Assembly (NCBI RefSeq): GCF_007859075.1
Contig: NZ_VOAK01000003.1
Span: forward strand, 1-56,711
Length of the DNA: 56,711 bases
Reading direction: 5' to 3'
Origin: Gemmobacter aquaticus
Lineage (GTDB): Bacteria > Pseudomonadota > Alphaproteobacteria > Rhodobacterales > Rhodobacteraceae
Part shown: one piece after another, positions 13,565 through 36,216 of the stretch
How positions within the stretch are numbered: the stretch's first letter is position 1
How the letters are laid out: every line of letters begins with the position of its first letter
The notes under the pieces: generated by a model
What the model saw: the letters and a program-made list of their open reading frames with translations, nothing else
Databases searched by the model: none
Told to the model about the DNA's origin: nothing
Made by a program: the position numbers and the translations under genes

Positions 13565-13571
13565 CAGTTCC

Positions 13572-14372
13572 TCATGCAAATGTTGTCGTCACTGTTCCAA
13601 ATGGCCCGAAGTCAGCGACGAACCGGCTGCCGGACGGGGCTTCGACCGGTCGTATGAACGATCCCGACAATACCACGTCCCCGGCCGACAGACCCTGCCC
13701 GAACTGGGCAAGCCGATGGACCAGCCACAGGATGCCCGTGACAGGGTCATCCAGCACTCCCGCACCAAGGCCGGTCTCCTCGACAATGCCATCGCGTTTG
13801 ACGATGGCGCCGACCCATCGCAGGTCATGCTCGCCAATGGCATGGCGCGCCTGTCCCAGCACAAGCCCCGCGTTGGCGGCATTGTCCGAAATGGTGTCGG
13901 TGACCTTGCGCAGCGCCTTTGTCACAGGGTCTCCCCGCAGGATGCGGGTGTCGAGGATCTCAAGGCTGGGCGCGACCCAATCTGTTGCGGCAATGACATC
14001 CTCGCGGGTGACGTTGACCCCGGCCAGATCGGCGCCCATGTGAAAGGCGATCTCCGCCTCGATCCTCGGCTGGATGAAGCGCCCGGCGGGAACCGTACCA
14101 CCATCTTCAAACAGCATGTCGTCGAAGATCACGCCCGAATCCGGTGTTTCGATCTGAAGGGCCTCCTGCATCGCGCGCGAGGTCAGACCGATCTTCCAGC
14201 CGACGATCCGTGCCCCTGCCGCGCGCTTCAGCTCCACAAGTGCAGCCTGCACGGCATAGGCATCGTCAAGTGTTATACCCGGATGGGCAAGGCTCAGCAG
14301 CCCGATCTGGCGGCGGGTCCGTTCGGCTTCGAAAAGGGCACGCGCTGCGGTGTCAATGTCAAGCGGGGTCAT
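13572..14372 (-). CDS. hpaH: 2-oxo-hept-4-ene-1,7-dioate hydratase (HpaH)
   Basis: The 266-residue protein is a 2-keto-4-pentenoate hydratase of the HpaH/HpcG branch: RIVGWKIGLTSRAMQ, DSGVIFDDMLFEDG, the metal-binding RIEAEIAFHMG (E-x-E) and the C-terminal SGSFIRPVEAPSG. It adds water to 2-oxohept-4-ene-1,7-dioate to give the HpaI substrate. Its ATG overlaps the stop of the preceding FAH gene (ATGA), and its own end is followed closely by hpaI, consistent with one transcript and coupled translation. Confidence 0.9.
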   Translation of the reverse strand: MTPLDIDTAARALFEAERTRRQIGLLSLAHPGITLDDAYAVQAALVELKRAAGARIVGWKIGLTSRAMQEALQIETPDSGVIFDDMLFEDGGTVPAGRFIQPRIEAEIAFHMGADLAGVNVTREDVIAATDWVAPSLEILDTRILRGDPVTKALRKVTDTISDNAANAGLVLGQARHAIGEHDLRWVGAIVKRDGIVEETGLGAGVLDDPVTGILWLVHRLAQFGQGLSAGDVVLSGSFIRPVEAPSGSRFVADFGPFGTVTTTFA

Positions 14373-16695: not shown

Positions 16696-16748
16696 CGGCA
16701 TCCGTATTGTGTTCCGCAACTGGAGTGGAGAGGGCGCAAGCGGGCCTC

Positions 16749-17987
16749 TTATCCCGCCTGACTCGCGCGCCATTGGGCCAGCAGTGCCTTGCCGTAGTCA
16801 TTGCCATTGGGCAGGCGCGAGATGACATGGATATGGAACTTTGCCGGCTCCGTATTGCCAAGCCACATGCCAGAGTGGTGGTCGAACTCCAGCATCACGA
16901 CCGGGCTGTGGATGTGGAAATAGAAGGGGTCGTTGTCGCCGTGCCCCCCGATCCAGCTGAACCAGGTCCGGTCGAGATGGGCGGCAATTTGCGCCATGCG
17001 CGCCGCGCGTGGGCCATCGGGCCAGTGTTCGTAGAAGGTCTCGCACAGATCCAGCAGCGCCGCGCGTTGGCTGGCGTCCAACTCGGCCACGCAGACCCCT
17101 TCGACCGGCACAATACGATTGTCCTGGAACGCCCCGCCCAGATGGCGCTGATCGGCAAAGTTGAAGCGCCATTCCGGCATGGCCGGGTCTTCCATCAGCT
17201 TGAAGATCGTGGCCCGCGCCTGCAGTTTAGGCGGCAGTGACTGCATCAGCGCCAGCCCCTTGCGTTCTTCGGCCTTGAACATCGCAAAGCACTCGCCGCT
17301 TTTCAGGGCGATGTCATTCGGCTCGGTCCCCATGAAGGTGGGCGAAATCACCATCTGGCGCCCGATGATCAGGCAATTGAACCCGATGTGATGGCCATAG
17401 AAGTTGAAGCCCCAGGGCGTAGAGGTGGAGGGCGCGCCATAGATCAGAACATGGTAGGACCATTCGTTCATGACGTTGGTCAGATCATAAAGCTCACCCA
17501 GAAACAGGTTCGCCTTCATCAGCTGCCGGATCTTCTCATACCCCCGCGATGACGTGCAGGCAGCGATCAGTTGCATGAAGGCATCACGGGCGGCATCCGT
17601 CATCGTTTCCAGCCGGACACCTTCGGTATTGAAGACCAATTCAGGATTGTACCATCCGCGCCATTGTGGGGCATCGATATCGTGGCACACACGCGCGCGC
17701 TGATCGTCGTCAAGGCAGGCAAGAAATGCCAGTGCTGCGTCAACGGCTGGCGACGGGTCGAAGCCCTCGTCGGCAAGCTGGTATAGCCCTTCCTCTACCT
17801 GCCCGTCATGCGTGACGCCGACATAGGGCGCATCCTGCAGGGCTTTCCAGGCAGCCTTCAGCGCAATTGCACGCTCTGTCGCCAGGACCGGCGCCGAATA
17901 GGTGACAGGATCGAGACCATGCGAGTTCGCAATACGCGGTGTGCTCATCGGCAGGATGAACTGTCGGTAGTCGGCGCTGGTCATCAT
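16749..17987 (-). CDS. DUF3500 protein heading the catabolic operon
   Basis: The 412-residue protein matches my memory of the DUF3500 family: a GWYNPELVF block, LGELYDLTNVMNEWSYHVLIYG, WGFNFYGHHIGFNCLIIG and the C-terminal FSWIGGHGDNDPFYFHIHSPVVMLEFDHH. The last blocks are rich in His and Asp that could bind a metal. No signal peptide is seen, so it is probably cytoplasmic. The reaction is unknown. Being the first gene of a tight operon with the aldehyde dehydrogenase, FAH protein, hydratase and aldolase argues for a dedicated step in this pathway. The start follows GAGGAGG; two adjacent ATGs (17987 and 17984) are both possible. Confidence 0.75.
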   Translation of the reverse strand: MMTSADYRQFILPMSTPRIANSHGLDPVTYSAPVLATERAIALKAAWKALQDAPYVGVTHDGQVEEGLYQLADEGFDPSPAVDAALAFLACLDDDQRARVCHDIDAPQWRGWYNPELVFNTEGVRLETMTDAARDAFMQLIAACTSSRGYEKIRQLMKANLFLGELYDLTNVMNEWSYHVLIYGAPSTSTPWGFNFYGHHIGFNCLIIGRQMVISPTFMGTEPNDIALKSGECFAMFKAEERKGLALMQSLPPKLQARATIFKLMEDPAMPEWRFNFADQRHLGGAFQDNRIVPVEGVCVAELDASQRAALLDLCETFYEHWPDGPRAARMAQIAAHLDRTWFSWIGGHGDNDPFYFHIHSPVVMLEFDHHSGMWLGNTEPAKFHIHVISRLPNGNDYGKALLAQWRASQAG

Positions 17988-18057
17988 TGATCCTCCTCTG
18001 TCGGTGGCACGGTTTCATGATGGAGCCCGCGTCTGCAAGGATGGCCCGGCCGGATTG

Positions 18058-18072
18058 TTCACATCGCGGAAA
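18058..18072. promoter_or_regulatory. 15-bp regulon palindrome, site 3
   Basis: TTCCAC-ATC-GCGGAA lies in the 204-base divergent region between the DUF3500-led operon (starting 17987, minus strand) and the GntR gene (18192, plus strand), 71 bases from the former. It has the same half-site pattern as the other sites. Confidence 0.55.
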
Positions 18073-18113
18073 GCGGTATTCGGACCGATCACCTGATCTG
18101 ACATTGTGATAAA

Positions 18114-18125
18114 AAATATATTTTG
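18114..18125. promoter_or_regulatory. AT-rich palindrome in the divergent promoter region
   Basis: AAAATATATTTT is a perfect 12-bp palindrome within an unusually AT-rich stretch (18107-18147) of this GC-rich DNA, 67 bases before the GntR start. It may be a -10 region or an operator for the GntR protein. This is inferred from position only. Confidence 0.35.
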
Positions 18126-18191
18126 CAAAGAAAATACTTTTTATTTAGAGATGACGGCGGAGGAACCTGCGGCACGAATCGGAGGAGCTTG

Positions 18192-18902
18192 ATGGCAGCC
18201 GCCAGTCGGACCGCACAGGTCTATGAATCGCTCAAGGAAGAGCTATTGAACGGGCGTCATGCGCCGCGATCAAAGCTGGCAATTGATGCGCTGGCCATGC
18301 GCTTTTCGGTCTCGGTTGGCGCGGTGCGCGAGGCCCTGTCGCGGCTGACCTCGGACCGCCTGGTCGAGGCAGTTCCGCAGCGCGGCTTCGTGGTGGCGGC
18401 GGTGTCACGGGCAGATCTCATCGATCTGACGGGGGTGCGGATCGAAATCGAGACACGGTGCCTGCGCCAGTCGATCGAGCGCGGTTCGGTCGCCTGGGAG
18501 GGGCGGCTGATCTCGACCTGGCATCAGTTGTCACATGTCGCGGCCTCGCCCCTTGGGCGAATGCATCCGGACTGGGCACGCCTGCACGCACAGTTCCACG
18601 ATGATCTGGTCTCGGCCTGCGAAAGCCCCTGGTGGCTGCGCCTGCGCGAGTCTCTTTACATGCAGGCCGAGCGGTATCGGCGGATGATCCTGCCCGGTGC
18701 GCAGGCCAGGCGCGATATTCATGCCGAACACCGGCAGATCGTGGAAAGCACACTTGCACGCGACGCCGACCGGGCCGTGGCGGCGCTGGCGGAACACATG
18801 CAGAAGACCACTGATGATCTGTTGGAGGCGGGTCTGGGTGGTCTGGAACAACAAGAGGCGCGCACGACCGCGCGGGAGGAACATCATGGCAAGAACGGCT
18901 GA
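18192..18902 (+). CDS. GntR-family (FadR/FCD) regulator
   Basis: The 236-residue protein has an N-terminal GntR winged helix (about residues 5-70; LAMRFSVSVGAVREALSRLTSDRLVE). A C-terminal all-helical FCD ligand domain follows (about 78-220) with conserved acidic and His positions (HAQFHDDLVSAC, HAEHRQIVE) that usually bind a metal and a carboxylate ligand. The start at 18192 follows GGAGGAGC by 4 bases. Its 3-prime end overlaps the IclR gene by 17 bases. The two regulators are therefore co-expressed and probably sense different intermediates of the aromatic pathway. Confidence 0.88.
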   Translation: MAAASRTAQVYESLKEELLNGRHAPRSKLAIDALAMRFSVSVGAVREALSRLTSDRLVEAVPQRGFVVAAVSRADLIDLTGVRIEIETRCLRQSIERGSVAWEGRLISTWHQLSHVAASPLGRMHPDWARLHAQFHDDLVSACESPWWLRLRESLYMQAERYRRMILPGAQARRDIHAEHRQIVESTLARDADRAVAALAEHMQKTTDDLLEAGLGGLEQQEARTTAREEHHGKNG

Positions 18903-19692
18903 AGGCGGTAGCATCCGCAGCGAAACCTCGGGAACGCAGTGTATCCATCGGTCATTCGCAGTGGTGCGGATGCTGGCAAGCGGATCTGCCGAGGGTGAAA
19001 AACTGGTGGATATTGCCGCGACACTCAACCTGTCGCATCCGACGGCGCATCGGATCCTCAAGGCGCTTGAAACCGAGGGGATCGTGGAACGCGCCCGCGG
19101 CTCGCGACGCTACCAATTGGGCAGCGAGGCGGCCTGGCTCGGGCTTGCGGCCTTCAACCGCTTTCCAATCACGCGTCTGGCAAGCCCCGTGCTTGACCGG
19201 TTGGTTGAGACCGTCGGGGATTCAGTATTCCTGTCGGTCCCCTCCCACAATGACTCAGTCTACGCTGATCGCCGCTTTGGCGCCTATCCGGTTCAGGCGC
19301 GTCGCGTTGCGGTGGGTGCGCGCCGTCCGCTTGGCGTATCTGTCGCCGGGCGCACGATCATGGCTTACATGAAGCCCGAACGGCTGGAAGCGGTTCTGCG
19401 CGAGAACGCCGACCGCTATGGCGACTGGCGCTGCACGGAATCCCAGATCCTCTGCGGGGCAGAGGGCGCCCGCGAGCAGGGCTTTCTCTGTTCCGACAGT
19501 GTGGTGAACAGCGAACGGCGGGTGCTGGCGGTGCCTGTGCGCGACATCGTGGGCCATCCCGTCGCCGCGATCAGCGTGATCGCTGCGCGGCCACGGCTTG
19601 GTGGAGAGCGCATCTCGCGCCTTGTGCCGCTCCTGCGCGAGGCCGCGCGCGACATCAGCACCGCATTGCATCGGCAAGCCATCCCGGGCTGA
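18886..19692 (+). CDS. IclR-family regulator
   Basis: The 268-residue protein has the IclR layout: a winged HTH at about residues 20-80 (LVDIAATLNLSHPTAHRILKALETEGIVER), then the GAF-like effector domain to the end (ARRVAVGARRPLGVSVAGRTIMAY, VLAVPVRDIVGHPVAAISV). IclR proteins of aromatic pathways (PcaR, PobR, HmgR types) bind about 15-bp imperfect palindromes. This regulator is therefore a good candidate for binding the seven 15-bp sites of this block. The ATG at 18886 follows GGGAGGAAC and lies inside the end of the GntR gene. Confidence 0.88.
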   Translation: MARTAEGGSIRSETSGTQCIHRSFAVVRMLASGSAEGEKLVDIAATLNLSHPTAHRILKALETEGIVERARGSRRYQLGSEAAWLGLAAFNRFPITRLASPVLDRLVETVGDSVFLSVPSHNDSVYADRRFGAYPVQARRVAVGARRPLGVSVAGRTIMAYMKPERLEAVLRENADRYGDWRCTESQILCGAEGAREQGFLCSDSVVNSERRVLAVPVRDIVGHPVAAISVIAARPRLGGERISRLVPLLREAARDISTALHRQAIPG

Positions 19693-19717
19693 CGCCAAAT
19701 GGCCCCGGTGGGTGCCT

Positions 19718-19732
19718 GTCCGCGATATGAAC
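19718..19732. promoter_or_regulatory. 15-bp regulon palindrome, site 4
   Basis: GTCCGC-GAT-ATGAAC lies 25 bases after the IclR stop and 114 bases before the hpaD start. Both half-sites fit [GT]T[TC]C[AG][CT]. Confidence 0.5.
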
Positions 19733-19845
19733 AAAAGCCGCCTCCCGCGTTGTCCGCGACACTCCAAGGCGCAAAGCTTGATCAGGCGAAGCAAGGGGCC
19801 GCAGCCCCGGGGCGGCAAGGAGGCCGCCCGCCATTGGAGGACCGA

Positions 19846-20847
19846 ATGAAACTTCCCGCACCCATCCTGACACCCCCGTTCAACATCACGCGGGCAAGCC
19901 ATGTCGTGTTGACCGTCGCTGATCTTGACGCATCGAAGGCCTTCTACACCGATCTTGTGGGTCTGGTGGTCACAGCCGAAGACAGCGAGGCCGTCTATCT
20001 GCGTGGCCGTGAAGAAAGCTGCCATCACAGTCTGGTTCTGCGCAAGGGTGCGACCCCAGAATGCCAGCGCATCGGCCTGCGCGTGCTGACCGATGATGAC
20101 ATCCTGAAGGCCAAGGATTATTTCGACAGCATCGGCACCGAGGCCCGGATCGTGGATGTGCCCTATCAGGGCAAGACGCTGCATTTCAACGATGCCATCG
20201 GTATGCCGGTAGAGTTGACCGCATCCATGCCGGCCCAGCCGCGGCTGTTCATGTCCTACGACCGTTATCACGGCGCCTCGGCGCAGCGGCTGGATCACTG
20301 GCAGATCCAGGCCCAGGACGTACGGCGCGCCTTCAACTTCTGGCATCCGCTGGGGTTCCGTGCCTCGGAATACACCTATTCGATCGACGACGGGGGCGAG
20401 AACCTCTGGGGTGTCTGGCTTCAGCGCAAGGGCAACCCGCATGACCTGGTGTTTACCAATGGTCCGGGGCCGCGGCTGCACCATTTCGCCTATCTGCTGC
20501 GCGACGCCCACGACCTCGTCCATGCCTGTGACGTTGCGGGCGCGATGGGGCTGGGCCGCCGGCTTGAGCGTGGTCCGGGCCGTCACGGCATCTCGGGTGC
20601 GATGTTCATCTACTTCCGCGACCCTGACGGGCACCGGATCGAGCTGTTCAACACCCATTACCAGACAATCGACCTTGAAGACCCGATCGGTTGGGACCTG
20701 CAGGACCCGCGCCGCGCCGACCAATGGGGTCTGCCCGCGCAGGCCAAGTGGTTCAACGAGGCGACCACTTTCGCCGGCTCGCCGCCCGCTCTGCCGGATC
20801 TGAAGTCGGAACTGCCAACGCTGGAGCGGTTCCTCGGCATGGTCTGA
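19846..20847 (+). CDS. hpaD: homoprotocatechuate 2,3-dioxygenase (VOC type)
   Basis: The 333-residue type I extradiol dioxygenase closely follows the HPCD of Brevibacterium as I recall it. Two VOC modules each half the protein are present. The metal ligands are His151 (RLDHW), His213 (PRLHHFAY) and Glu266 (HRIELF), with the second-sphere acid-base His199 (NPHD) and the RGPGRHGIS loop. It opens 3,4-dihydroxyphenylacetate next to its hydroxyls to give 5-carboxymethyl-2-hydroxymuconic semialdehyde. The start follows GGAGG by 5 bases. A strong terminator follows, so it is the last gene of its unit. Confidence 0.92.
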   Translation: MKLPAPILTPPFNITRASHVVLTVADLDASKAFYTDLVGLVVTAEDSEAVYLRGREESCHHSLVLRKGATPECQRIGLRVLTDDDILKAKDYFDSIGTEARIVDVPYQGKTLHFNDAIGMPVELTASMPAQPRLFMSYDRYHGASAQRLDHWQIQAQDVRRAFNFWHPLGFRASEYTYSIDDGGENLWGVWLQRKGNPHDLVFTNGPGPRLHHFAYLLRDAHDLVHACDVAGAMGLGRRLERGPGRHGISGAMFIYFRDPDGHRIELFNTHYQTIDLEDPIGWDLQDPRRADQWGLPAQAKWFNEATTFAGSPPALPDLKSELPTLERFLGMV

Positions 20848-25773: not shown

Positions 25774-27078
25774 TCAACCGAACATGGTATTCGGCAGGAA
25801 CAGTGCGATCTGCGGGAAGATCACGATCAGAAGCAGGCAGATCAACATGGCGAACAGAAAGGGCAGTACCCCTCTGAAGATCGTCGCCATTGGCACATCC
25901 GGGGCGATGCCCTTGACGACAAAGACGTTCAGTCCCACAGGCGGCGTGATCATCCCCATCTCGACCACGATCACCGCGACGACACCGAACCAGATCGGAT
26001 CGAAGCCGTTCTGCATCATGATCGGAAACACGATAGGGATGGTCACCACCAGCATCGACAGCCCGTCGAGGAACATGCCGAGTATCACATAGGCGACCAC
26101 GATTACGGCCAGCGCGCCATAGGGGCCGAGGCCAAGCCCCGCAAGACCCTCGCCAAGCGTGGTCGGGATATGGGTCATCGCAAGAAAGGGGTTCAGCACG
26201 TTGGCCCCGATCACAACCATATAGAGCATGGCCGAGGTCTTGACCGTGTCGAATATCGCCTGCCGGAACTTGGGCGCGGTCAGGCTGCGAGAGACCAGCG
26301 CCAGCAGGATCACCAGTGCCGCGCCGATACCCGAAGCTTCAACCGGCGTGAAGACACCCACATAAATCCCGCCGATCGACAGTAAGATCACTGCGACCAG
26401 TGGCGCCGCCCCAAGGGCCAGACGGAACTTCTCGGCCATGGGAACTGCAGGGCCACGCGGCCCGGCCGCCGGGTCGATCACCGACATGATCCAGACTGTC
26501 GCGATGAACAGGCACATCAGCAGCAGTCCGGGGATCACCCCCGCCATGAACAGCCGCCCGATCGATTCCTCGGTCAGGATGGCATAGATCACGAAGCCGG
26601 TCGAAGGCGGGATCAGAAAGCCCAGCGTGCCGCCGGCGGCAACCGCACCAGTCGAGAGAGCCGGGCCATAGCCAAGCCGCTTCATTTCCGGCAGGGCAAC
26701 CTTGCCGATGGTGACTGCGGTGGCAACCGACGAGCCCGACACCGCCGAGAACATCGCACAGCCGATGACCGAGGCCGATGCCAGTCCGCCGCGGAACCGA
26801 CCGACCCAGGCAAAGGCCGCGTCATAAAGGCCGCGCGAAAAGCCCGCTGCCGATGCGACATTTCCCAGCAGGATGAACATCGGCACCACGATCAGGGAAT
26901 AGCCCGATACCGCGGCATAGCTTTCTGTCAGCAGAACACCCCCGGCCGATTTGAAGCCGCTCAGCACCCAGGTGCCAAAGAAGCCGACCAGAAGCATGGC
27001 GAATGCCACCGGTGTGCGCAGGATCATCAGGGCAAACAGCCCGCCGATCCCGACAAGTCCCACAATCGTCTCATTCAT
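25774..27078 (-). CDS. dctM: second TRAP large permease (DctM)
   Basis: The 434-residue polytopic protein has DctM signatures VIGCAMFSAVSGSSVATAVTIG, GGTLGFLIPPSTGFVIYAI and MGMITPPVGLNVFVVKG. It differs clearly from the DctM at 11322, so the two TRAP systems are not a recent duplication. It is the last gene of a minus-strand dctP-dctQ-dctM operon and its start overlaps the dctQ end by 8 bases. Its likely cargo is the aromatic acid of the gallate-type cluster upstream (see the shared LysR box). Confidence 0.92.
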   Translation of the reverse strand: MNETIVGLVGIGGLFALMILRTPVAFAMLLVGFFGTWVLSGFKSAGGVLLTESYAAVSGYSLIVVPMFILLGNVASAAGFSRGLYDAAFAWVGRFRGGLASASVIGCAMFSAVSGSSVATAVTIGKVALPEMKRLGYGPALSTGAVAAGGTLGFLIPPSTGFVIYAILTEESIGRLFMAGVIPGLLLMCLFIATVWIMSVIDPAAGPRGPAVPMAEKFRLALGAAPLVAVILLSIGGIYVGVFTPVEASGIGAALVILLALVSRSLTAPKFRQAIFDTVKTSAMLYMVVIGANVLNPFLAMTHIPTTLGEGLAGLGLGPYGALAVIVVAYVILGMFLDGLSMLVVTIPIVFPIMMQNGFDPIWFGVVAVIVVEMGMITPPVGLNVFVVKGIAPDVPMATIFRGVLPFLFAMLICLLLIVIFPQIALFLPNTMFG

Positions 27079-27577
27079 CGCTTGGTCCCGCCTTCAGGAT
27101 CAGCACGACCTGCAGCGCCAGCACGACGACGCACAGCGCCATGCCCAATGCGAGGATCGCGTAAAAGGGCCAGATCGGCAGACCCAGCATGTTGGTTGCA
27201 TCGCCATACTTCGCCGCGTCGATGGCCTTGAGCGCCGAGCGCCAGACGAGCACCGCCAGCGCAAAGCCCGACAGCAGACGCGACATCAGATCGCCGACAA
27301 AGCGCCACCGCGCGCCGATTGCGGCGTCCAGAACGTCAACTCGCACATGGGCGCCTTCAGCCGTGGCCCAGGGCAGGGCCAGCATCACCACGGCGACCGA
27401 ATTCAGCTGAACAATCTCGTTGATGCCCAGGATCGGTGTGGCGAAGGCAAAGCGCAGCACAACGCCGATTGCCACGAGCACGACCATGAACAGAAGGCTC
27501 ACCCCGGCGGCCATGGCGAGGATGAGGTTGGCCCGGTCGAACCATGTCGACCGGGCCTCGGATACCTGCGCCGCCAC
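27071..27577 (-). CDS. dctQ: second TRAP small permease (DctQ)
   Basis: The 168-residue protein has four hydrophobic helices (LILAMAAGVSLLFMVVLVAIG, LNSVAVVMLALPWA, LLSGFALAVLVW and FYAILALGMALCVVVLAL) and the DctQ-type TAEGAHVRVDVL motif between helices. It begins with GTG directly after the dctP stop codon with no gap, so translation depends on coupling. It bridges the binding protein and DctM. Confidence 0.88.
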   Translation of the reverse strand: MAAQVSEARSTWFDRANLILAMAAGVSLLFMVVLVAIGVVLRFAFATPILGINEIVQLNSVAVVMLALPWATAEGAHVRVDVLDAAIGARWRFVGDLMSRLLSGFALAVLVWRSALKAIDAAKYGDATNMLGLPIWPFYAILALGMALCVVVLALQVVLILKAGPSDE

Positions 27578-28558
27578 TTACTTGGCCCGCAGAGCGTCGA
27601 TGATCGCCTGGGCGTCACCACCCGTTTCGGCCACAACTGTATCCACCACCGGCGCGGAGAGCGTATTGAAGGCTGCGGCTTCTTCGGGCGTCAGCTTGAT
27701 CAGCTCCTTGCCCTCGGTTGCGCCAAACTTCTCGATGCCTTTTGCGGCCTCGCTCAGCTGCACCTGATTGCCCAGAACCGAAACCTCGCGGCCCACCGCG
27801 TCAACGGCGGCCTGATGCTCGGCCGACAGGCCATCAAACGCATCCCGGTTCATCAGGATGAAGAACGGCGAGATGGCCGTGTCCATGCCCACGGTCAGAT
27901 AGTTGGCCACTTCGCCCAGCTTGAAGGCCATGGTGGCGGTGCCGTCGATCATGGCGGCGTCGATCACGCCGGTCTGCATGGCGTTGTAGATCTCTGACAC
28001 CGGCATCGACACGGGAGAGCCGCCCCAGGCCTCCACGATCAGTCCCGCATTGCGCGAGGGGACGCGGATCTTCATGCCCTTGACGTCGTCGGGCGTGCGC
28101 ACCGGCTTGTCGCGGGTGTAAAGAATGTTCTGGGCATTGGACCACAGCGACACCAGTTTCACCCGCTCGTATTCCGGGCCAAGCAGGTCGATGTTTTTCC
28201 ACAGGGTCGCGGTGCCATCGGCCTCGGTCAGCACGCCCGGCAGTTCGGTGAGCAAGGTCAGCGGAAAGTTCGCAGCCGTATAGCCCGGCAGCCCAACGGC
28301 AAGCTCGGCCACACCATCGACGACGCGCGAATACTGATCTGCCGGGCCTGCGCCCAACTCGCCACCGTTGTAGACCTTGACGGTGACGGCGCCGCCCGTC
28401 GCCTCGGCGATCTTTGCGGCAAGCGGGTCGAAGGCGCCCGCGACATAGGGATGGGTCGGCGCCATGTAGTTGGCAAACTTCAGCTCTTGTGCCCCGGCGG
28501 CGCCAAGGCCCAGGCCGCAGGCCAGAACGGCACTGGTCAGCAGTTTCATCATCGACAT
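27578..28558 (-). CDS. dctP: second TRAP substrate-binding protein (DctP)
   Basis: The 326-residue periplasmic protein has a signal peptide (MSMMKLLTSAVLACGLGLGAAGAQ) and a DctP core: YNGGELGAGPADQYSRVVDG, DVKGMKIRVPSRNAG (conserved carboxylate-binding Arg) and MPVSEIYNAMQTGVIDAAM. The start at 28558 follows AAGGAGGAG by 5 bases. It heads the operon. A LysR-type box 133 bases upstream resembles the one in front of galB, linking this transporter to the gallate-type genes. Confidence 0.92.
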   Translation of the reverse strand: MSMMKLLTSAVLACGLGLGAAGAQELKFANYMAPTHPYVAGAFDPLAAKIAEATGGAVTVKVYNGGELGAGPADQYSRVVDGVAELAVGLPGYTAANFPLTLLTELPGVLTEADGTATLWKNIDLLGPEYERVKLVSLWSNAQNILYTRDKPVRTPDDVKGMKIRVPSRNAGLIVEAWGGSPVSMPVSEIYNAMQTGVIDAAMIDGTATMAFKLGEVANYLTVGMDTAISPFFILMNRDAFDGLSAEHQAAVDAVGREVSVLGNQVQLSEAAKGIEKFGATEGKELIKLTPEEAAAFNTLSAPVVDTVVAETGGDAQAIIDALRAK

Positions 28559-28690
28559 CTTGGCTCCTCCTTGAGTGTCCGGCGCGTGGGTCGCTGCCGT
28601 TTCTGTGTGATGTGACGGGGCTCCCCTCCCGCTAAGTCGCTTGTCGTCCGAAAGGGGGGCGTCGGACCATTCAGAAGCGGAAGGTGCGGT

Positions 28691-28706
28691 ATAAGTTCTT
28701 GCTAGA
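28691..28706 (-). promoter_or_regulatory. LysR-type box upstream of dctP2
   Basis: Read on the minus strand, TCTAGCAAGAACTTAT carries the T-N11-A LysR core and matches 12 of 16 bases of the box before galB (30820-30835) in the same orientation relative to the downstream gene. It overlaps the last codon and stop of the lysR gene. Confidence 0.5.
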
Positions 28707-29883
28707 GCGATATGGTGGGGCTCTCGAACGCGACTGTTCGCAAATCCTCCAGAAACTCGCCCTGCGCGCGGGTAGGCAACCAGTCGGCGCGATGCGTAAG
28801 CCCGATGGGGCGCGTCGTGTCGGCAAGATCGACCGGCACAGGTTCCAGAGCCCCAAGGCGGACCTCGGCTGCAATCTGGGTCTGCGAGATGCATCCCAGG
28901 TGGTCAGAGATCTGCAGAAGCTCTCTCATCAGGACCATTGATCCGGTCTCGACCAGGCTGGGCGGGTGACCCGCACGGCCGGTTATCCGGTCGAATGCGG
29001 TGCGGGCGGGGGCGCCTTCGGGGCTGACGACAAAAGGATAGGCCATCAGATCGGTCAGTGTGGGGTTGGGCAGATCCAGCGCGGGATGGCCTGATCGGGC
29101 GACGATCTGCAAGCGGTCGTCAAACAGCGGCACCTGTACGATATCGCCGATGGGGGCGGGATCGCGCAGGGCGCCGATCAGAAAGTCCACCTCACCGCGT
29201 CTCAGGCCAGCGATCATGTCGGCATAGGGGCCATCGAGGGCGCGCACCGGCAGGGTCGGGCGACGCTTTCTGAACCGGGCAATCGCCTGCGGCAACAACG
29301 ACGACCGCGACAGCGGCATCGCCCCGATCACGATGCGCCCGACCTCGCGGCCCAGCAACTCGGCCAGGTCTGCCTCTGCCTGATCCAGTTCGGCGAAGGC
29401 AAGCCGGGCCGCCTGCGCCAATGCCTGTGCGGGGCGGGTGGCGACAAGGCCATGCGCGGTCCGCTCGAAAAGCGCCCGGCCAGCTTCTTGTTCCAGCTGG
29501 CTGACGGCGCGATGAACGGTGGGCTGAGCAAGCCCCATGCGACGTGCGGCGAGTGTAAAGTTCTCGGCCTCGCGCGTGGCGATCAGCGCCTGCAGCTGCG
29601 CCGAACTCGCGGTCAACGTCAGACGTGGCGCGAGATCAGAGAGCACCGGGTCCAGCAGTGCGAAGGACCGTGCGACACGGGCGGCCAGCACTTCGCCCGC
29701 GTGGGTCAGGAACAGCGCCTGTGGTCGGCGCAGAAACAGGGGCTGTCCTGCAAGCCGCTCCAGCTTGGCCAGCGCCTGGGTGACTGCGGGCTGTGAGACA
29801 TGCGCAGTCTCGGCTGCGCGGGTGACCGATCCCGATTGTGCGACGGACTGGAATACCCGCAAATGGCGAAGGTTCGATTTCAT
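28702..29883 (-). CDS. LysR-family regulator with two tandem HTH domains
   Basis: The 393-residue protein is longer than a typical LysR (about 300). It carries two winged HTH units: residues about 4-62 (TRAAETAHVSQPAVTQALAK) and about 97-155 (LAARRMGLAQPTVHRAVSQL). The periplasmic-binding-like effector domain follows (about 183-390; GRIVIGAMPLSRSSLLPQAI). Both HTHs keep the recognition-helix pattern. It starts in an ATGA overlap with the dehydrogenase gene upstream and would control the divergent gal genes and the TRAP operon downstream through T-N11-A boxes. Confidence 0.88.
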   Translation of the reverse strand: MKSNLRHLRVFQSVAQSGSVTRAAETAHVSQPAVTQALAKLERLAGQPLFLRRPQALFLTHAGEVLAARVARSFALLDPVLSDLAPRLTLTASSAQLQALIATREAENFTLAARRMGLAQPTVHRAVSQLEQEAGRALFERTAHGLVATRPAQALAQAARLAFAELDQAEADLAELLGREVGRIVIGAMPLSRSSLLPQAIARFRKRRPTLPVRALDGPYADMIAGLRRGEVDFLIGALRDPAPIGDIVQVPLFDDRLQIVARSGHPALDLPNPTLTDLMAYPFVVSPEGAPARTAFDRITGRAGHPPSLVETGSMVLMRELLQISDHLGCISQTQIAAEVRLGALEPVPVDLADTTRPIGLTHRADWLPTRAQGEFLEDLRTVAFESPTISL

Positions 29884-30764
29884 TGCGTTGCCTCGGGTGC
29901 CAGCGATGCGAGGATCCGGTCGGCGCGGTCGACCAGATCACCATCCCCACCGGTCAAATGCAGTCCGGCGATGCGGTCCTGCCAGCCGGCGGTTGCCTGC
30001 GCCATGGCATCGGGCAGGCCCAGCTCGCGCAGAGTTGCCGCCACCTCGCGCATCTCCGCAGCCCGACGCGCGCCATGAACGATCATGCGTTCCAGATTGT
30101 AGGTGCCACGTGCGCGCCAGTTCCAGCCGGGGTCCGAAGCCTGCAACGATGCCAGGACCTCTGTCTCGACCCCTGCGCGGCGGGCGGCGAGCAGACACTC
30201 TGCGCTCAGCGCCTCTAACCCCTTGATCATCACCGACCGGAGCATCTTGATCGCAGAAGCATCTCCGATACGTTCGCCCACAACTTGCCAGTCCATGCCA
30301 AGCGCCTGACCGAGGGCAAAGGCCGCCGCGGCGTTGGGGCCAGCCAGCAGGCCGGGCGTCCGGTGCAGGCGGGGATACACCGGCGCCATGATCGCCAGAT
30401 CGACATAGCGTCCGCCAGCACGCTCTATGACCTCCGCCGCGGCGCGCTTGGTGCCCGGCGCACAGGAATTGCCATCAAGCCAGAAAGCCCCTTCGGGCAA
30501 ATGCGGCGCACAGGCGATCGCGGCCGCCAGGGCCTGATCTGCGGTGACCAGACAGAAGGCGGCCCCGGCATCGGCCAGAGCGGTGGCTGGATCGGTCCCG
30601 CATTCCACACCATGCGAGGCGGCCGCATCCTGCATCGCGGGATCGCCCGCGCGCAGGTCGCAGGCGCGGGTCCGTCCGCGTGCCGCATCGCCCCACCCAG
30701 TGACGAAAGCCTGCCCGGCCTCGCCAAACCCCACCATTGCCACTCGCGGAAAATCCTTGGTCAT
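29880..30764 (-). CDS. NAD(P)-dependent dehydrogenase, DUF1932 type
   Basis: The 294-residue protein belongs to the beta-hydroxyacid dehydrogenase superfamily. It has an N-terminal Rossmann domain (VAMVGFGEAGQAF), WLDGNSCAPGTK, and the catalytic Lys in SAIKMLRSVMIKGLEAL, followed by the DUF1932 C-terminal domain. Paralogues oxidise or reduce small hydroxy acids. In this setting it might act on a hydroxy-keto acid of the gallate or protocatechuate 4,5-type route, such as the lactol or hydroxy-oxoadipate intermediates; the sequence does not settle this. GGAGGA precedes the ATG, and it is the first gene of a two-gene unit with lysR. Confidence 0.8.
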   Translation of the reverse strand: MTKDFPRVAMVGFGEAGQAFVTGWGDAARGRTRACDLRAGDPAMQDAAASHGVECGTDPATALADAGAAFCLVTADQALAAAIACAPHLPEGAFWLDGNSCAPGTKRAAAEVIERAGGRYVDLAIMAPVYPRLHRTPGLLAGPNAAAAFALGQALGMDWQVVGERIGDASAIKMLRSVMIKGLEALSAECLLAARRAGVETEVLASLQASDPGWNWRARGTYNLERMIVHGARRAAEMREVAATLRELGLPDAMAQATAGWQDRIAGLHLTGGDGDLVDRADRILASLAPEATQ

Positions 30765-30819
30765 CGCTCGTCCTCCTCGGTCGGCAGCTTGCCGCGATCC
30801 GCTGCGCTGATCCAGTGGC

Positions 30820-30835
30820 TATAGCCCAAACTTAT
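30820..30835 (+). promoter_or_regulatory. LysR-type box between the dehydrogenase gene and galB
   Basis: TATAGCCCAAACTTAT contains an ATA-N9-TAT dyad that satisfies T-N11-A. It sits near the middle of the 148-base divergent region, 77 bases before galB and 55 from the dehydrogenase start, the classic place for a LysR activator site. Confidence 0.55.
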
Positions 30836-30839
30836 CGCC

Positions 30840-30869
30840 GCGGCCGGGCTTCTGAATTGGCCCGGCCGC
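30840..30869 (+). other. GC-rich hairpin in the galB leader
   Basis: GCGGCCGGGC (30840-30849) pairs perfectly with GCCCGGCCGC (30860-30869) around a 10-base loop, immediately downstream of the LysR box and 43 bases before the galB start. With no T-tract it is not a normal terminator. It could be an mRNA-stabilising or attenuating element. Confidence 0.4.
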
Positions 30870-30912
30870 CGGCTTGCGCCACAACCTGCACAGAGAATTG
30901 CAGGAGGAAATC

Positions 30913-31650
30913 ATGACCACCAAGGACAAGACCGCGCTTGTCATCTCGGCGCATGCCGCCGACTTTGTCTGGCGCTGCGGGGGTGCGATTGCGCTTCATG
31001 CCGAGCAGGGGGTCAAGGTCACCGTCGTCTGCCTGTCCTATGGCGAGCGCGGTGAAAGCGCGAAGCTGTGGAAGCAGCCCGGCATTACGCTGGACCGCGT
31101 GAAAGAGGTGCGGCGTGCCGAAGCGCAAAAGGCTGCCATGGCCCTTGGTGTGCATGAGTTGATTGAGTTTGACATGGGCGACTACCCGCTGGAATTCACC
31201 CGCGCCCACAAGGACCGTCTGGTCGACGTGATGCGCGCGGTCGATCCCGCCTTCATGCTGTCGCACAGCCAATTCGACCCCTATAACACCGACCACATGC
31301 TGACCACGCAAGTCGTGCTTGAATGTCGCTCGACCGCGCAGGCATGGGGGCACAATCCGGGCCAGAAGGTTCTGGGCGCGCCGCAGCTTTACCTGTTCGA
31401 GCCGCACCAGACCGAGCAGATGGGCTGGAAGCCCGATACCTTCCTCGACATCACCCCTGTCTGGGAAAAGAAATGGGCCGCGATCCAGTGCATGGAGGGG
31501 CAGGAGCACCTTTGGCACTTTTACAAGAACGTGGCCGAGAACCGTGCCAATCACTTTACCCGCAATTCCGGCGGTCAGTCTGGCGGGCGAAACTGCAAAT
31601 ACGCAGAAGGCTTCCAGTCGATCTTCCCACGCACGGTCGACAGTCTCTGA
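30913..31650 (+). CDS. galB: 4-oxalomesaconate hydratase, PIG-L fold (GalB)
   Basis: The 245-residue protein has the PIG-L/GlcNAc-deacetylase-like zinc fold of Pseudomonas putida GalB, as I recall that sequence. The metal motif AHAADF gives His14 and Asp17, and His128 lies in DPYNTDH. Closely similar blocks include VCLSYGERGESAKLW, YLFEPHQTEQMGWKPDTFLDIT and AIQCMEGQEHLWHF. It hydrates 4-oxalomesaconate to 4-carboxy-4-hydroxy-2-oxoadipate. The start follows AGGAGGAA. It is the first gene of the gal-type operon, divergent from the dehydrogenase/lysR unit. Confidence 0.9.
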   Translation: MTTKDKTALVISAHAADFVWRCGGAIALHAEQGVKVTVVCLSYGERGESAKLWKQPGITLDRVKEVRRAEAQKAAMALGVHELIEFDMGDYPLEFTRAHKDRLVDVMRAVDPAFMLSHSQFDPYNTDHMLTTQVVLECRSTAQAWGHNPGQKVLGAPQLYLFEPHQTEQMGWKPDTFLDITPVWEKKWAAIQCMEGQEHLWHFYKNVAENRANHFTRNSGGQSGGRNCKYAEGFQSIFPRTVDSL

Positions 31651-31770
31651 TCTTTCCGGTTGCCGCAGGCGGAGGACCTGCGGCAGCCTTTCCCCTACAG
31701 GGACATGGCGCAAGTCTCGTTACCGCACCCGCGCTAACGGTGGGGCGGGGCGCGTGCCACAGGAGGAACC

Positions 31771-32733
31771 ATGACTATCCCCACGAATCCGTCCTTCGAT
31801 CTGGCCCATCTGGCCCATGTCGAGATGTTCACCGACAAGTTTGACGAAAGTCTTGACTTCTTCACCCGTGTCTACGGGCTGAAGCTGTCGGGGCAGGACG
31901 CAGACAGTGCCTATCTGCGGGCCTGGGACGATTACGAATACTGCTCGCTGAAGTTGACGCGGTCTGACACGACGGGCGTGGGGCATATCGCCTATCGCGC
32001 CGCCAGCCCCGAAGCGCTGGAGCGCCGCGTGAAGGCGATCGAGGCGTCTGGCTACAAGGTCCACGGCTGGAACGACGGCGACCCAAGCCATGGCCGCGCC
32101 TTCCGGTTCGAGGATCCCTTCGGCCATGTCTTCGAGATCTACTATGACACCGTCTGGTATCAGCCGCAGGACGAGGCCGAGCGCGCCGCGCTGAAGAACA
32201 CGGCCAGTGCCTTCAGCGGTGCCGCACCCCGCAGGCTCGACCACCTCAATCTGTTGTCCGCGGACGTGACCGAATTCCGCCGCTTTATGGAGACCTGCCT
32301 TGGCAGCCGTGTGACGGAGTACATCGAACTCGATAATGGCCGGCTGGGTGGTTGCTGGTTCACCATCAACAACAAGACCTATGACCTTGCCTGCACCGAG
32401 GAACATGGTGGCGGTGTGGGGCGTCTGCACCACGTCACCTATGCCACCGACCAGCGCGAGGATATCCTGCGCGCGGCAGACATTTTTCTGCAGAACGGCG
32501 TTCACATCGAAACCGGACCGCACAAGCACGCGGTGCAGGGCACCTTCTTCCTCTATGTCTGGGAGCCCGCAGGCAACCGGGTCGAACTTGCCAATTCCGG
32601 AGCCCGGCTGATCCTCGCACCGGACTGGCAGCCCGTGAAATGGACGCAGGCCGACCGCATGAAGGGACAGGCCTGGGGTCTCAAGACCATCGAGAGCTTC
32701 CACACCCACGGTACGCCGCCGGTGAAGAAGTAA
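31771..32733 (+). CDS. VOC-fold extradiol dioxygenase in the gal operon
   Basis: The 320-residue type I extradiol dioxygenase has two VOC modules. Probable iron ligands are His158 (RRLDHLNLL), His221 ([10 protein letters not shown]) and Glu272 (NRVELAN). It resembles catechol 2,3-dioxygenase-like enzymes and is quite different from HpaD at 19846. Gallate and protocatechuate 4,5-cleavage are normally done by LigB-type enzymes (GalA, LigAB), which are absent here. Its place between galB and galC suggests that it supplies the galB/galC/galD branch by ring cleavage, perhaps of gallate. The start follows AGGAGG. A different catecholic substrate remains possible. Confidence 0.82.
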
Positions 32734-32785
32734 TGCGTTGTGGCGGGGCGAAGGTGCCCCGCCCGTTTTCAGATTGGAGAGCATC

Positions 32786-33457
32786 ATGGGTGTCGTCATC
32801 CAGAATATTGCCCGTGCCGACGCTGCGGTGATCGACGGACTTGCGAAAGCAGGTGTGGCAACCGTGCATGAAGCGCAGGGCCGCAAAGGGTGTCTGCACA
32901 GCTACATGCGCCCGATCTTTGGCGGGGCCCAGGTGGCAGGCTCGGCCGTCACTATCAGCGCGCCGCCCGGCGACAACTGGATGGTGCATGTTGCCATCGA
33001 GCAACTGCAGCCCGGCGATCTCTTGGTCCTTGCGCCGACCTCGCCATGCGACAACGGCTATTTCGGCGATCTGCTGGCCACCAGTGCAATGGCGCGCGGC
33101 TGCCGTGGACTGATCATCGATGCAGGCGTGCGCGACGTGCGTGACCTCACCGCCATGGGCTTTCCGGTCTGGTCGCGCGCAATCAGCGCCCAAGGCACCG
33201 TCAAGGAGACGCTCGGCTCGGTCAATGTGCCGATCGTCTGTGCAGGTCAAGCCATTGATGCCGGTGACATCATCGTGGCCGATGACGACGGAGTTGTCGT
33301 GGTGAAGCGTTCAGAGGCTGAGGCTGTTCTTGCCGCAGCCGAAAAGCGTCTTGCCGCCGAAGAGGCCAAACGCCAGCGCCTTGCCGCCGGGGATCTTGGT
33401 CTCGATATCTACAACATGCGCCCGACGCTGGAAGCAAAGGGCCTGAAATACATCTGA
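32786..33457 (+). CDS. galC: 4-carboxy-4-hydroxy-2-oxoadipate aldolase (RraA/LigK fold)
   Basis: The 223-residue protein matches the LigK/GalC class II aldolase built on the RraA fold: [41 protein letters not shown] (Arg116, Asp117) and [13 protein letters not shown]. It cleaves 4-carboxy-4-hydroxy-2-oxoadipate to pyruvate and oxaloacetate and decarboxylates oxaloacetate. It is the step after GalB, so it completes the gallate-type lower pathway. The ATG at 32786 follows GGAGA; the open frame begins earlier without a ribosome-binding site. The tannase gene starts 9 bases after its stop. Confidence 0.9.
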
Positions 33458-33466
33458 GAGGTTGCC

Positions 33467-35152
33467 GTGCGCCTGATCCCTCTTGTCGCCGTCCTGCTGA
33501 TCGCCGGCCTTGGATCCAGCTGTCCCGCGCGTGCCGCGGAGGATCTGGCCCCGATGGCCGCCGCCACGCCCTGCGCCGGGCTGGCTGCGGTCGATCTGGC
33601 CACCATCGGGGGGGCGGGCAGTTCTGTCAGCTCCGCCGAGGAAACGACAAGCGACGGGATCGCGGTCTGCTCGGTCACAGGGACGCTGGCGCCCGAGATC
33701 AACTTTCAGGTGCTGCTGCCGGTGCAGACGTGGACGCAGCGCTATCTGCAGGTCGGCTGTGGCGGGCTGTGCGGCACTATCACGCTGCGCTCGGGTGCGT
33801 CGAGCGGCTGTCAGGTCCTGAACGATGGCGGCTTTGTCATGGCGGCCACCGACATGGGCCATTCGGGGCAGGGGGCGGCATGGGGGCTCGATCCGCAGCG
33901 CTACGCTGATTTCTCGCATCGCGCGCAGCATGTCACGGCGCTTGCGGCCAAGGCCTTGATCCAAGCGTATTATGGTCAGCCTGCCCGCTACAGCTATTTC
34001 AACGGCTGCTCGGATGGTGGACGTGAAGCCTTGATGGCTGCCTTGCGCTATCCCGACGATTTCGACGGGATCATTGCCGGTGCGCCCGCCATGCTCTTCC
34101 AGGTGCAGAACACGTTGCACCACGGCTGGCTCGCGCGGTCTAACATGGATGCCGAGGGTCGGCCGATCCTGCTATCGCACAAGCTGCCTGCGCTGCATGC
34201 GGCAGTAATTGCGGCCTGCGACGCAACAGATGGTCTGGCCGATGGGCTGATCTCGCAGCCGGCGCTCTGCCAGTTCGACGCGGCCACCATTGCCTGTGCG
34301 GATGGGCGTGATGATGCCACCTGCCTGACGCCAGCCGAGATCACCGCAGTCCGCAAGATCTACGACGGTCCGCGCGATGCGGCGGGCCTGCCACTGACGC
34401 AGGGGCAGTCAACCTTTGGCTCGGAACTGAACTGGCAAGGCGTGTTCGTGCCAGACGAGGTCGATCAGCAGCCCTTCAGCAAGATGATTGCCGAACCCGT
34501 GCTGCAGAACCTCGCCTTCGATCCGCCGCGCCCGGAGATGACGCTGCAGGATCTTGAGTTCTCGACCGCCACGCTTGATGCGCTGCGCGCGCGCCATCCG
34601 ATGATTGACGCGACCAGCCCAGAGCTTTCGGCCTTTGCCGGAATGGGGGGCAAGCTCATCCTCTGGCATGGCCTCGCCGATCCCCATATCGCACCCGCCA
34701 ACACGCTTGCGCTGCACAAGGCGATGATCGCCACCATGGGGACTGACAAGGTACAGGCGTTCTCTAGGCTCTATCTGTTGCCGGGCATGGGCCATTGCGG
34801 CGGCGGGCAGGGTCCGTCGCAACTTGATCTGCTGACCCCGATTCTGGATTGGGTGGAGACCGGCATTGCCCCCGACGCAATCGCCACCGCAACGACCGCC
34901 GAAACATCCACCTTCGGCCAACCTGACGGAGTGGAAGGCGGGGGCGGCCATCCACCCGCACGGGATCTGGGCGTGGCGCCGCTGCCCGACATGACCCGCC
35001 CTGTGTTCCCATGGCCTGCAACCGCTGTCTTTTCCGGATCGGGCAACCCGCATGACGCCGCAAACTGGACACGCGGCCCTGACGCCGAGATCGTCGCCTT
35101 GCGTGACTGGCCCGGTGCCGACCTCTTCACACCGTTTACTCGGAAAGACTGA
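33467..35152 (+). CDS. exported tannase/feruloyl-esterase family enzyme
   Basis: The 561-residue secreted esterase begins with GTG at 33467 (GAGAGG 5 bases upstream) and a signal peptide (MRLIPLVAVLLIAGLG to ARA). The tannase family hallmark is complete: Cys181-Ser182 in NGCSDGG, Asp405 in HGLADPHIAP, and His443-Cys444 in PGMGHCGGG, the disulfide-linked CS-D-HC triad. A calcium-loop-like DATDGLADG is also present. It would release an aromatic acid (gallate, ferulate or a phthalate-type monoester) from esters in the periplasm or outside. It lies between galC and galD with almost no gaps, which favours gallate esters. Confidence 0.88.
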   Translation: MRLIPLVAVLLIAGLGSSCPARAAEDLAPMAAATPCAGLAAVDLATIGGAGSSVSSAEETTSDGIAVCSVTGTLAPEINFQVLLPVQTWTQRYLQVGCGGLCGTITLRSGASSGCQVLNDGGFVMAATDMGHSGQGAAWGLDPQRYADFSHRAQHVTALAAKALIQAYYGQPARYSYFNGCSDGGREALMAALRYPDDFDGIIAGAPAMLFQVQNTLHHGWLARSNMDAEGRPILLSHKLPALHAAVIAACDATDGLADGLISQPALCQFDAATIACADGRDDATCLTPAEITAVRKIYDGPRDAAGLPLTQGQSTFGSELNWQGVFVPDEVDQQPFSKMIAEPVLQNLAFDPPRPEMTLQDLEFSTATLDALRARHPMIDATSPELSAFAGMGGKLILWHGLADPHIAPANTLALHKAMIATMGTDKVQAFSRLYLLPGMGHCGGGQGPSQLDLLTPILDWVETGIAPDAIATATTAETSTFGQPDGVEGGGGHPPARDLGVAPLPDMTRPVFPWPATAVFSGSGNPHDAANWTRGPDAEIVALRDWPGADLFTPFTRKD

Positions 35153-35157
35153 CGACC

Positions 35158-36216
35158 ATGACTGACGGCATCCCTTGCCTCTGGATGCGGGGCGGCACCT
35201 CGAAGGGTGCTTACTTCCTTGCCAGCGATCTGCCCGCCGATCCGGCGACTCGCGACGCGGTGCTGCTCCGGATCATGGGCAGCCCCGATCCACGCCAGAT
35301 TGACGGCATCGGCGGGGCTGATCCGTTGACCTCGAAGGTCGCGATCCTGTCGCCTGCGACGCGGCCTGACGCGGATGTGGACTATCTGTTCCTGCAGGTC
35401 TTCGTCGATCAGGCGCTGGTGTCGGATGCACAAGGCTGCGGCAACATCCTCGCGGGCGTCGGTCCCGCCGCGATCGAGCGGGGGCTTATGCCCGCGAAAG
35501 ATGGCGAAACGCCGGTGCGCATCCACATGCGCAACACCGGTGAGGTGGCGGTGGCCCGTGTGCAGACGCCGGGCGGCCGTGTGAGCTATGCCGGGGACAC
35601 CTCTATCGACGGTGTTCCGGGCACGGCTGCTGCGATCCCGCTGATGTTCCAGAGCATCGCAGGCTCCATGTGCGGCGCCCTGCTGCCTACGGGGCGTGCG
35701 GTGGATGTGATTGACGATGTGGCCTGCACATTGATCGACAACGGCATGCCCATCGTCGTGATGCGGGCCGGGGATTTCGGTCTGACCGGGCAGGAATGCC
35801 GCGACGAGATCGAAGCGATGGCCGAGGTCAAGGCGCGCATCGAGGCAATCCGCCTGAAGGCCGGTCCGATGATGAATCTGGGCGATGTCAGCGCTGCTTC
35901 GGTCCCGAAGATGACACTGGTCTCCGGGCCGATCCGCGGCGGAGCGATCAGTACCCGCAGCTTCATCCCTCACCGCGTCCATGCCTCGGTCGGGGTCTTT
36001 GCGGCTGTCAGTGTTGCGACCGCCTGTCTTTTGCCTGAGAGCCCGGCTGCGGGGTTGGCGGTGGTCCCCCCCGACGGACGCTTCGCCGTGGAGCATCCCA
36101 CCGGCAGCGCCGAAGTGTTTCTCGACATCGCGCCCGACGGAACGGTGCGCGGCGCAGGAACCATCCGAACAGCCCGGAAACTGATGGATGGGCAGGTCTT
36201 TCCGGTATCGGCCTGA
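35158..36216 (+). CDS. galD: 4-oxalomesaconate tautomerase (GalD, PrpF family)
   Basis: The 352-residue PrpF-type isomerase with twin diaminopimelate-epimerase-like domains has the conserved blocks CLWMRGGTSKGAYF and DAQGCGNILAGVGP (catalytic Cys in CGN). GalD converts the keto form of 4-oxalomesaconate produced by ring opening to the enol form used by GalB. It starts 5 bases after the tannase stop, so the order galB, dioxygenase, galC, tannase, galD forms one tight operon. Confidence 0.88.
   Translation: MTDGIPCLWMRGGTSKGAYFLASDLPADPATRDAVLLRIMGSPDPRQIDGIGGADPLTSKVAILSPATRPDADVDYLFLQVFVDQALVSDAQGCGNILAGVGPAAIERGLMPAKDGETPVRIHMRNTGEVAVARVQTPGGRVSYAGDTSIDGVPGTAAAIPLMFQSIAGSMCGALLPTGRAVDVIDDVACTLIDNGMPIVVMRAGDFGLTGQECRDEIEAMAEVKARIEAIRLKAGPMMNLGDVSAASVPKMTLVSGPIRGGAISTRSFIPHRVHASVGVFAAVSVATACLLPESPAAGLAVVPPDGRFAVEHPTGSAEVFLDIAPDGTVRGAGTIRTARKLMDGQVFPVSA

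Follow-up and report, generated by a model that had tools for sequence, protein, structure and literature searches.

A gallate-type operon of Gemmobacter aquaticus in which a VOC-type dioxygenase probably takes the place of the LigB-type ring-cleavage enzyme

Which enzyme opens the aromatic ring in a gallate-type operon that carries no ring-cleavage gene of the LigB type? This question is raised by a 56,711-nucleotide stretch of Gemmobacter aquaticus DNA (assembly GCF_007859075.1, contig NZ_VOAK01000003.1; hereafter the window), in which an operon at 30913-36216 encodes, all on the forward strand, galB, a VOC dioxygenase, galC, a tannase-family esterase, and galD. In the passages cited here, the gallate pathways described use LigAB-type or GalA enzymes (PMC8091115; PMC9942251), gallate dioxygenases of the Pseudomonas putida KT2440 kind belong to the LigB superfamily (PMC4250580), and DesB, LigAB, and DesZ of Sphingobium SYK-6 are type II extradiol dioxygenases (PMC3962378). 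These placements agree with a preliminary description of the locus, which held that known gallate enzymes have the LigB fold, although the corollary that VOC enzymes never touch gallate is slightly too strong: in the section cited, a catechol 2,3-dioxygenase (VOC) of Bacillus ligniniphilus reduced the phenolic signal from gallic acid by 14% within 6 h (PMC9925492). No description of a VOC-type gallate dioxygenase was found in searches of an open-access library, a coverage outside which most subscription journals and all preprints fall. We propose that the operon serves the catabolism of tannins and of gallate, an acid derived from plant tannins, and that, judging from sequence and gene context, a VOC-type (type I) enzyme has probably replaced the LigB-type gallate dioxygenase in a non-orthologous manner.

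The genes surrounding the dioxygenase gene specify a recognizable lower pathway. The galB product (30913..31650, + strand) is a predicted 4-oxalomesaconate (enol) hydratase of the PIG-L/LmbE family (PF02585, 86.2 bits), and its closest PDB sequence by phmmer is 5cgz, named "4-oxalmesaconate hydratase" (E 5e-88). The galC product (32786..33457, +), a LigK/RraA-like 4-carboxy-4-hydroxy-2-oxoadipate aldolase, exceeds the cut-offs of both TIGR02798 (375.7 bits; cut-off 304.5) and NF006731 (386.5 bits; cut-off 179), and the galD product (35158..36216, +), a 4-oxalomesaconate tautomerase of the PrpF family, scores 507.6 bits against NF033377 (cut-off 440). GalB, GalC, and GalD homologues are found together, in an operon whose five open reading frames are separated, in order, by 120, 52, 9, and 5 bases. 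Their earlier reading as a lower pathway that starts from 4-oxalomesaconate is upheld by the curated cut-offs for GalC and GalD and by the nearest PDB sequence to GalB. Between galC and galD lies the gene for an esterase of the tannase/feruloyl-esterase family (33467..35152, +; PF07519, 434.7 bits, over the cut-off), with the motifs CSxGG, HGxxD, and GMxHC at positions 181, 401, and 440, a hydrophobic N-terminus that by eye resembles a signal peptide, and solved PDB relatives that include MHETase and feruloyl esterases. The preliminary description did not mention this gene, whose family membership would be an independent argument that the substrate is gallate.

The ring-cleavage gene (31771..32733, +) encodes an enzyme whose predicted structure is that of a type I (VOC) extradiol dioxygenase with two modules and whose iron set is complete, as the preliminary description had recognized. 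Profile searches identify two Pfam Glyoxalase stretches in the protein and no match to PF02900 (LigB), and its AlphaFold2 model (pLDDT 87.0) aligns in Foldseek with the type I extradiol enzymes 3lm4, 1mpy, and 1f1x (homoprotocatechuate 2,3-dioxygenase, HPCD) at query TM-scores of 0.90, 0.87, and 0.82, respectively. The same two-module fold and the same Fe ligands are shared with HPCD (1f1x, 4ghg; query TM-score 0.82-0.84) at a sequence identity of 26-28%: in a phmmer alignment, H158, H221, and E272 correspond to HPCD H155, H214, and E267, completing the 2-His-1-Glu set, and they are invariant in 42 of 42 alignment rows. HPCD residues N157, W192, H248, and Y257 are also conserved. Substituted, on the other hand, are His200 (Tyr204 here), the second-sphere catalytic histidine, and Arg243 and Arg293 (Thr248 and Gly299 here), which bind the carboxylate of homoprotocatechuate.

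By profile and fold the protein falls in the same family as the catechol 2,3-dioxygenases (TIGR03211; AphC 7q2a; RHA1 3lm4; XylE 1mpy), but it scores 293 bits against the TIGR03211 equivalog, below the cut-off of 320.2, has Tyr for the second-sphere His, and stands in a gal operon rather than in a meta-cleavage setting. The score against the HpaD equivalog is 200 bits (cut-off 321.4). The nearest solved sequence is PDB 9wgj (E 3e-102), deposited as "Catechol 1,2-dioxygenase" and absent among the 50 Foldseek matches listed; its sequence nevertheless aligns with those of VOC enzymes, and the residue opposite His200 is again Tyr.

In the organism's own genome, the LigB Pfam profile has a single match (102 bits), which is partial (model positions 38-246) and lies on a contig (C27) other than that of the gal genes; going by its sequence, we take this protein to be DODA/YgiD-like. 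A GalA or LigAB hidden elsewhere in the genome was rejected on this result. The PF07746 (LigA) profile gave no match, but it was equally silent on the controls and is uninformative. No match to PF00775 (intradiol dioxygenase) was found in the genome, and the best match to LigC reaches 35.5 bits. A second GalD, on contig C26 (L130, 7331-8401), was rejected as a member of the pathway; it adjoins apparent tripartite tricarboxylate transporter genes, without galB or galC.

The gene order recurs widely. Among the loci of the best 80 of 560 relatives (the nearest ones), for which at least 9 kb of flank was available on both sides in 59 and less in the remainder, galB, galC, and galD all lie within 3 kb of the VOC gene in 70. 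The carriers belong to many genera of Rhodobacterales and Rhizobiales, plus some others. In the fetched stretches of the 80 loci, LigB was found in one, LigC in none, LigJ in two, and a tannase-family gene in five; a LigB gene inside the relatives' operons was rejected, the one case (L020) being about 6 kb off and 29-35% identical. On the pAt plasmid of a walnut-derived Agrobacterium (L169, 8240-13611), the order is galB, VOC, galC, galD, and tannase, beside a branched-chain-type ABC transporter. LigJ, a hydratase unrelated to GalB, accompanies the VOC gene in L047, L071, L173, and L176, and GalB does so in most loci. Members of the VOC clade also occur in varied settings (L159, L186, L187), and no relative of the VOC gene was found in viral contigs, so that phage linkage was rejected.

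The full galBCD set is missing at ten of the 80 loci (L024, L033, L046, L047, L050, L054, L063, L066, L068, and L071), and whole-genome searches covered eight of these genomes (all but those of L054 and L063). A GalD over the cut-off occurs somewhere in seven of the eight, and in six of those seven it is adjoined by galB, galC, or a LigJ-like gene; the L066 genome has a GalD without galB or galC nearby, and the L050 genome yielded fragments only. In the L024 and L046 genomes LigI is also found beside GalD, so these organisms hold a protocatechuate-type cluster as well.

The replacement was also examined from the side of the lower pathway. GalD proteins over the NF033377 cut-off are present in 58 of 398 Pseudomonadota genomes, at 64 loci; within 12 kb, a LigB match (at least 145 bits) was found at 25 of these, a VOC match (at least 49% identity) at seven, both at one, and neither at 31. 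Closer examination was given to 38 loci, while the other 26, among them the second GalD of the Gemmobacter genome and, viewed as 4-kb stretches only, L103, L108, and L110, are without galB or galC and most likely encode other tautomerases; since NF033377 is exceeded at such loci, the name "4-oxalomesaconate tautomerase" is probably over-applied. Of the 25 LigB clusters, 20 carry both LigI and LigC, and of the eight clusters with VOC none does (Fisher p = 9e-5, uncorrected for kinship). Five of the 38 clusters (G307, G191, G196, G313, and G238) have neither ring-cleaving enzyme nearby; in G307 the VOC gene is on another contig, and in G191 and G196 a LigB gene lies elsewhere.

How, then, is the substrate to be named? 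The 4-oxalomesaconate chain, closed back into a ring, is 3,4,5-trihydroxybenzoate. From protocatechuate, the path to 4-oxalomesaconate runs through LigC and LigI (for the pathways, see PMC8091115), and cleavage of methylgallates yields a methyl ester or a pyrone. Because LigC is missing and LigI has only a relative of 31% identity in this genome, gallate would be the ring substrate that is cleaved directly to 4-oxalomesaconate. The pairing of the VOC clade with either of two unrelated hydratases, GalB or LigJ, likewise suggests that 4-oxalomesaconate is the shared node and gallate the substrate. The preliminary description had raised non-orthologous replacement conditionally, and had proposed looking for LigB-type genes elsewhere and for recurrence of the gene order; the sole, partial LigB match on another contig, the lack of a GalA-type enzyme and of LigC, and the conserved order in 70 of 80 loci all argue for it at the genomic level.

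In the proposed pathway, the tannase-family esterase, probably exported, would release gallate from gallate esters, and a TRAP transporter encoded nearby may import it. Gallate would be bound on the Fe(II) of the VOC enzyme via two adjacent hydroxyls, and the ring would be cut next to C4, between two OH-bearing carbons, to yield 4-oxalomesaconate. This product would be tautomerized by GalD and hydrated by GalB, and GalC would split the resulting 4-carboxy-4-hydroxy-2-oxoadipate into pyruvate and oxaloacetate. We infer the substrate, the product, the ester attacked by the esterase, and the transport role from gene context. The reaction proposed for the VOC enzyme, gallate to 4-oxalomesaconate, is the same as that of DesB, LigAB, and DesZ of Sphingobium SYK-6, and the fold class differs. 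The KT2440 gal cluster (galA, galB, galC, galD, and the LysR-type galR), as presented in the part of the source cited, shares the GalB, GalC, and GalD proteins, the divergent LysR gene, and the lower pathway (PMC9942251); the Gemmobacter locus differs from it in the VOC fold of its ring-cleavage enzyme and in its additional genes for a tannase-family esterase, a DUF1932 protein, and a TRAP transporter.

The second-sphere Tyr is the hallmark of a clade: all 37 clade rows (at least 59% identity) and all 80 loci have Tyr204, whereas His occupies the HPCD His200 position in 11 of 12 outgroup rows: in all five relatives at 42-48% identity, and in six of the seven remoter enzymes (27-30%). The exception, the HpaD-like VOC relative L127 (1501-2382), carries Leu where HPCD has His200 and Phe where HPCD has Trp192. 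In a maximum-likelihood tree of 49 rows, in which several outgroup rows sit on long branches, the Tyr rows fall on one side of a single branch (support 98/100), and the sister group of the Tyr clade retains His. From their conservation within the clade, H251, Q256, R279, K298, and Q300 are candidates for holding the carboxylate and the third hydroxyl of gallate.

The exchange of Tyr for His may fit a substrate with a hydroxyl on the attacked carbon. Gallate is mirror-symmetric, so that 4-oxalomesaconate results whether the bond cut is C3-C4 (intradiol) or C4-C5 (extradiol); regiochemistry would then be irrelevant, which may explain the loss of the second-sphere His. HPCD itself was reportedly converted into an intradiol enzyme by a change at His200 (Groce and Lipscomb, in 2003), and under an intradiol-like reading the Tyr clade may be the natural counterpart of that engineered enzyme. 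The name under which 9wgj was deposited is compatible with such a reading, though it may be just a name. In the part of a further study cited here, the peroxide in extradiol enzymes is described as having a protic histidine close by, and mutants without that His are slower (PMC13383722). That a gallate-specialized VOC enzyme, freed from the extradiol constraint, has fixed Tyr and performs an intradiol-like or regiochemically indifferent cleavage on an extradiol scaffold is, in our estimation, a doubtful extension of the replacement reading.

Several observations weigh against direct cleavage of gallate by the VOC enzyme. The enzyme could be a protocatechuate 4,5-dioxygenase, with the resulting semialdehyde oxidized to the pyrone-dicarboxylate and hydrolyzed to 4-oxalomesaconate by unlinked or unrecognized enzymes, possibly with the DUF1932 protein in place of LigC and the distant LigI relative as the hydrolase. 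That relative is the best LigI match among six Amidohydro_2 proteins of the genome, one of which is encoded in the window. It lies not in the operon but on contig C2 (L179, 1300-4300), with a DctP-like gene following it, and is 31% identical to LigI over 277 residues (102 bits); the LigI copies that are linked to related clusters show 46-83% identity. The genome also has no intradiol dioxygenase. Among the fetched stretches of the 80 loci, LigI reaches at least 200 bits in three and at least 100 bits in four. LigI lies in the VOC locus of a rose Agrobacterium (L176), and on a Roseomonas plasmid VOC occurs along with LigA, LigB, and a LigI-like protein. On a Thermus oshimai plasmid (L175, 7965-14364), a VOC relative of 58% identity is accompanied by genes for GntR, DUF6282, PIG-L, LigK, a 3-hydroxyisobutyrate-dehydrogenase-like protein, and 4-hydroxybenzoate 3-monooxygenase; the last of these suggests that some members of the clade use protocatechuate, and the locus possibly represents a VOC-based protocatechuate 4,5-pathway with an unrecognized pyrone hydrolase. 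For part of the VOC clade, the substrate may accordingly be protocatechuate, or there may be several acids that serve as substrates. For the Gemmobacter operon we nevertheless hold protocatechuate to be an unlikely substrate: LigC is absent from the genome and from all 80 loci, LigI is found in only three of these, and in many LigB-type clusters the DUF1932 gene adjoins LigC and so is not its substitute there.

Other observations speak for a looser tie between the VOC gene and the gal genes. Close relatives stand alone at L024, L033, L066, and L068; plasmid copies in Pantoea (L171) and Chimaeribacter (L177), at 78-79% identity, lie away from annotated gal genes; LigB and VOC share one cluster in G012; and two genomes with galBCD (G313 and G238) have neither a LigB nor a VOC relative in a genome-wide search, so that linkage by itself is not enough to identify the ring-cleaving enzyme in them. 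In these two, that enzyme may be unlinked or may belong to a third type; their galB-galC-galD operons (L141, 4771-8807, in G313; L147 in G238) have a LysR gene of the same family as that in the window. The VOC protein could then be a plain 2,3-dioxygenase of the catechol type, a hitch-hiker in the operon, while another enzyme cleaves gallate, as might also be suspected from TIGR03211 being its best family and from a sister-group member (L188, 44%) in what its translations suggest is a catechol meta-cleavage operon. With a score under the equivalog cut-off, a Tyr in the active site, retention beside galB, galC, and galD in most loci, and no LigB-type candidate elsewhere, we regard this as quite improbable. 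The esterase in the operon and the LigI gene at L176 could instead point to 3-O-methylgallate, or another gallate ether or ester, that is cleaved to a methyl ester or pyrone and then opened to 4-oxalomesaconate; sphingomonad LigAB and DesZ, in the passage cited, do use 3-O-methylgallate (PMC8091115). The esterase, however, appears to be exported, and its family and LigI are confined to five and three of the 80 loci, which makes such a substrate very unlikely. Finally, catechol-type VOC enzymes attack pyrogallol, which would arise from gallate by decarboxylation, and the Pantoea and Chimaeribacter copies could be read in this manner; but the product would miss the extra carboxylate on which GalB, GalC, and GalD act, and on these chemical grounds we give pyrogallol hardly any credence.

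Upstream of the operon and divergent from it are genes that would serve regulation and uptake. A putative LysR-controlled promoter lies in the intergenic region 30765..30912, between galB and a gene on the opposite strand (29880..30764, -) for a putative accessory oxidoreductase of the DUF1932/NAD-binding_2 type (PF09130, 71.9 bits). Relatives of the latter are present in 17 of 25 LigB-type clusters and in all eight clusters with VOC; the gene travels with the lower pathway irrespective of the type of ring-cleaving enzyme. The adjacent LysR-type regulator (28702..29883, -; PF00126 and PF03466), for which a GalR-like role is putative, scores 210.4 bits against TIGR02424 (PcaQ), under the cut-off of 303.8, and has two HTH_1 (PF00126) stretches, the first N-terminal and the second about 90 residues further. 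The TRAP transporter is encoded by a DctP gene (27578..28894, -; PF03480, 153.7 bits), the 5′ end of whose reading frame is probably over-long, a small permease gene (27071..27577, -), named DctQ-like from position and likeness, and a DctM gene (25774..27078, -; PF06808, 325.6 bits). The small permease family recurs at this position in 33 loci, its counterpart in L168 being annotated as a TRAP small permease, and a related DctM was found in 35 of the 80 loci.

At about 12782-20745, the window has a second aromatic-acid-like cluster, with apparent aldolase, hydratase, and aldehyde dehydrogenase genes (read from their translations) and an HpaD-like VOC dioxygenase (about 19846-20745) that is 27-29% identical to the operon's enzyme. 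At six of the relatives' loci (L021, L035, L038, L042, L044, and L074), a flavoprotein of the phenol 2-monooxygenase family is encoded about 6-9 kb from the VOC gene (the L021 copy scores 1030.6 bits with NF006144) and is possibly a hydroxybenzoate feeder.

Taken on the present genomic comparisons, the operon is a probable case of a known lower pathway with a new, non-orthologous ring-cleavage enzyme. If this is correct, gallate ring cleavage arose at least twice, on unrelated folds, and the exchange of Tyr for His would offer a natural test of what decides between intradiol and extradiol cleavage. In the plasmid rows listed, the gene is labeled "VOC family protein", "bphC", or "catechol 2,3-dioxygenase", or has no annotation, and with such generic or absent labels the flow of gallate carbon would be overlooked. 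Numerous marine and plant-associated Alphaproteobacteria that lack galA could then be counted as degraders of gallate or tannin.

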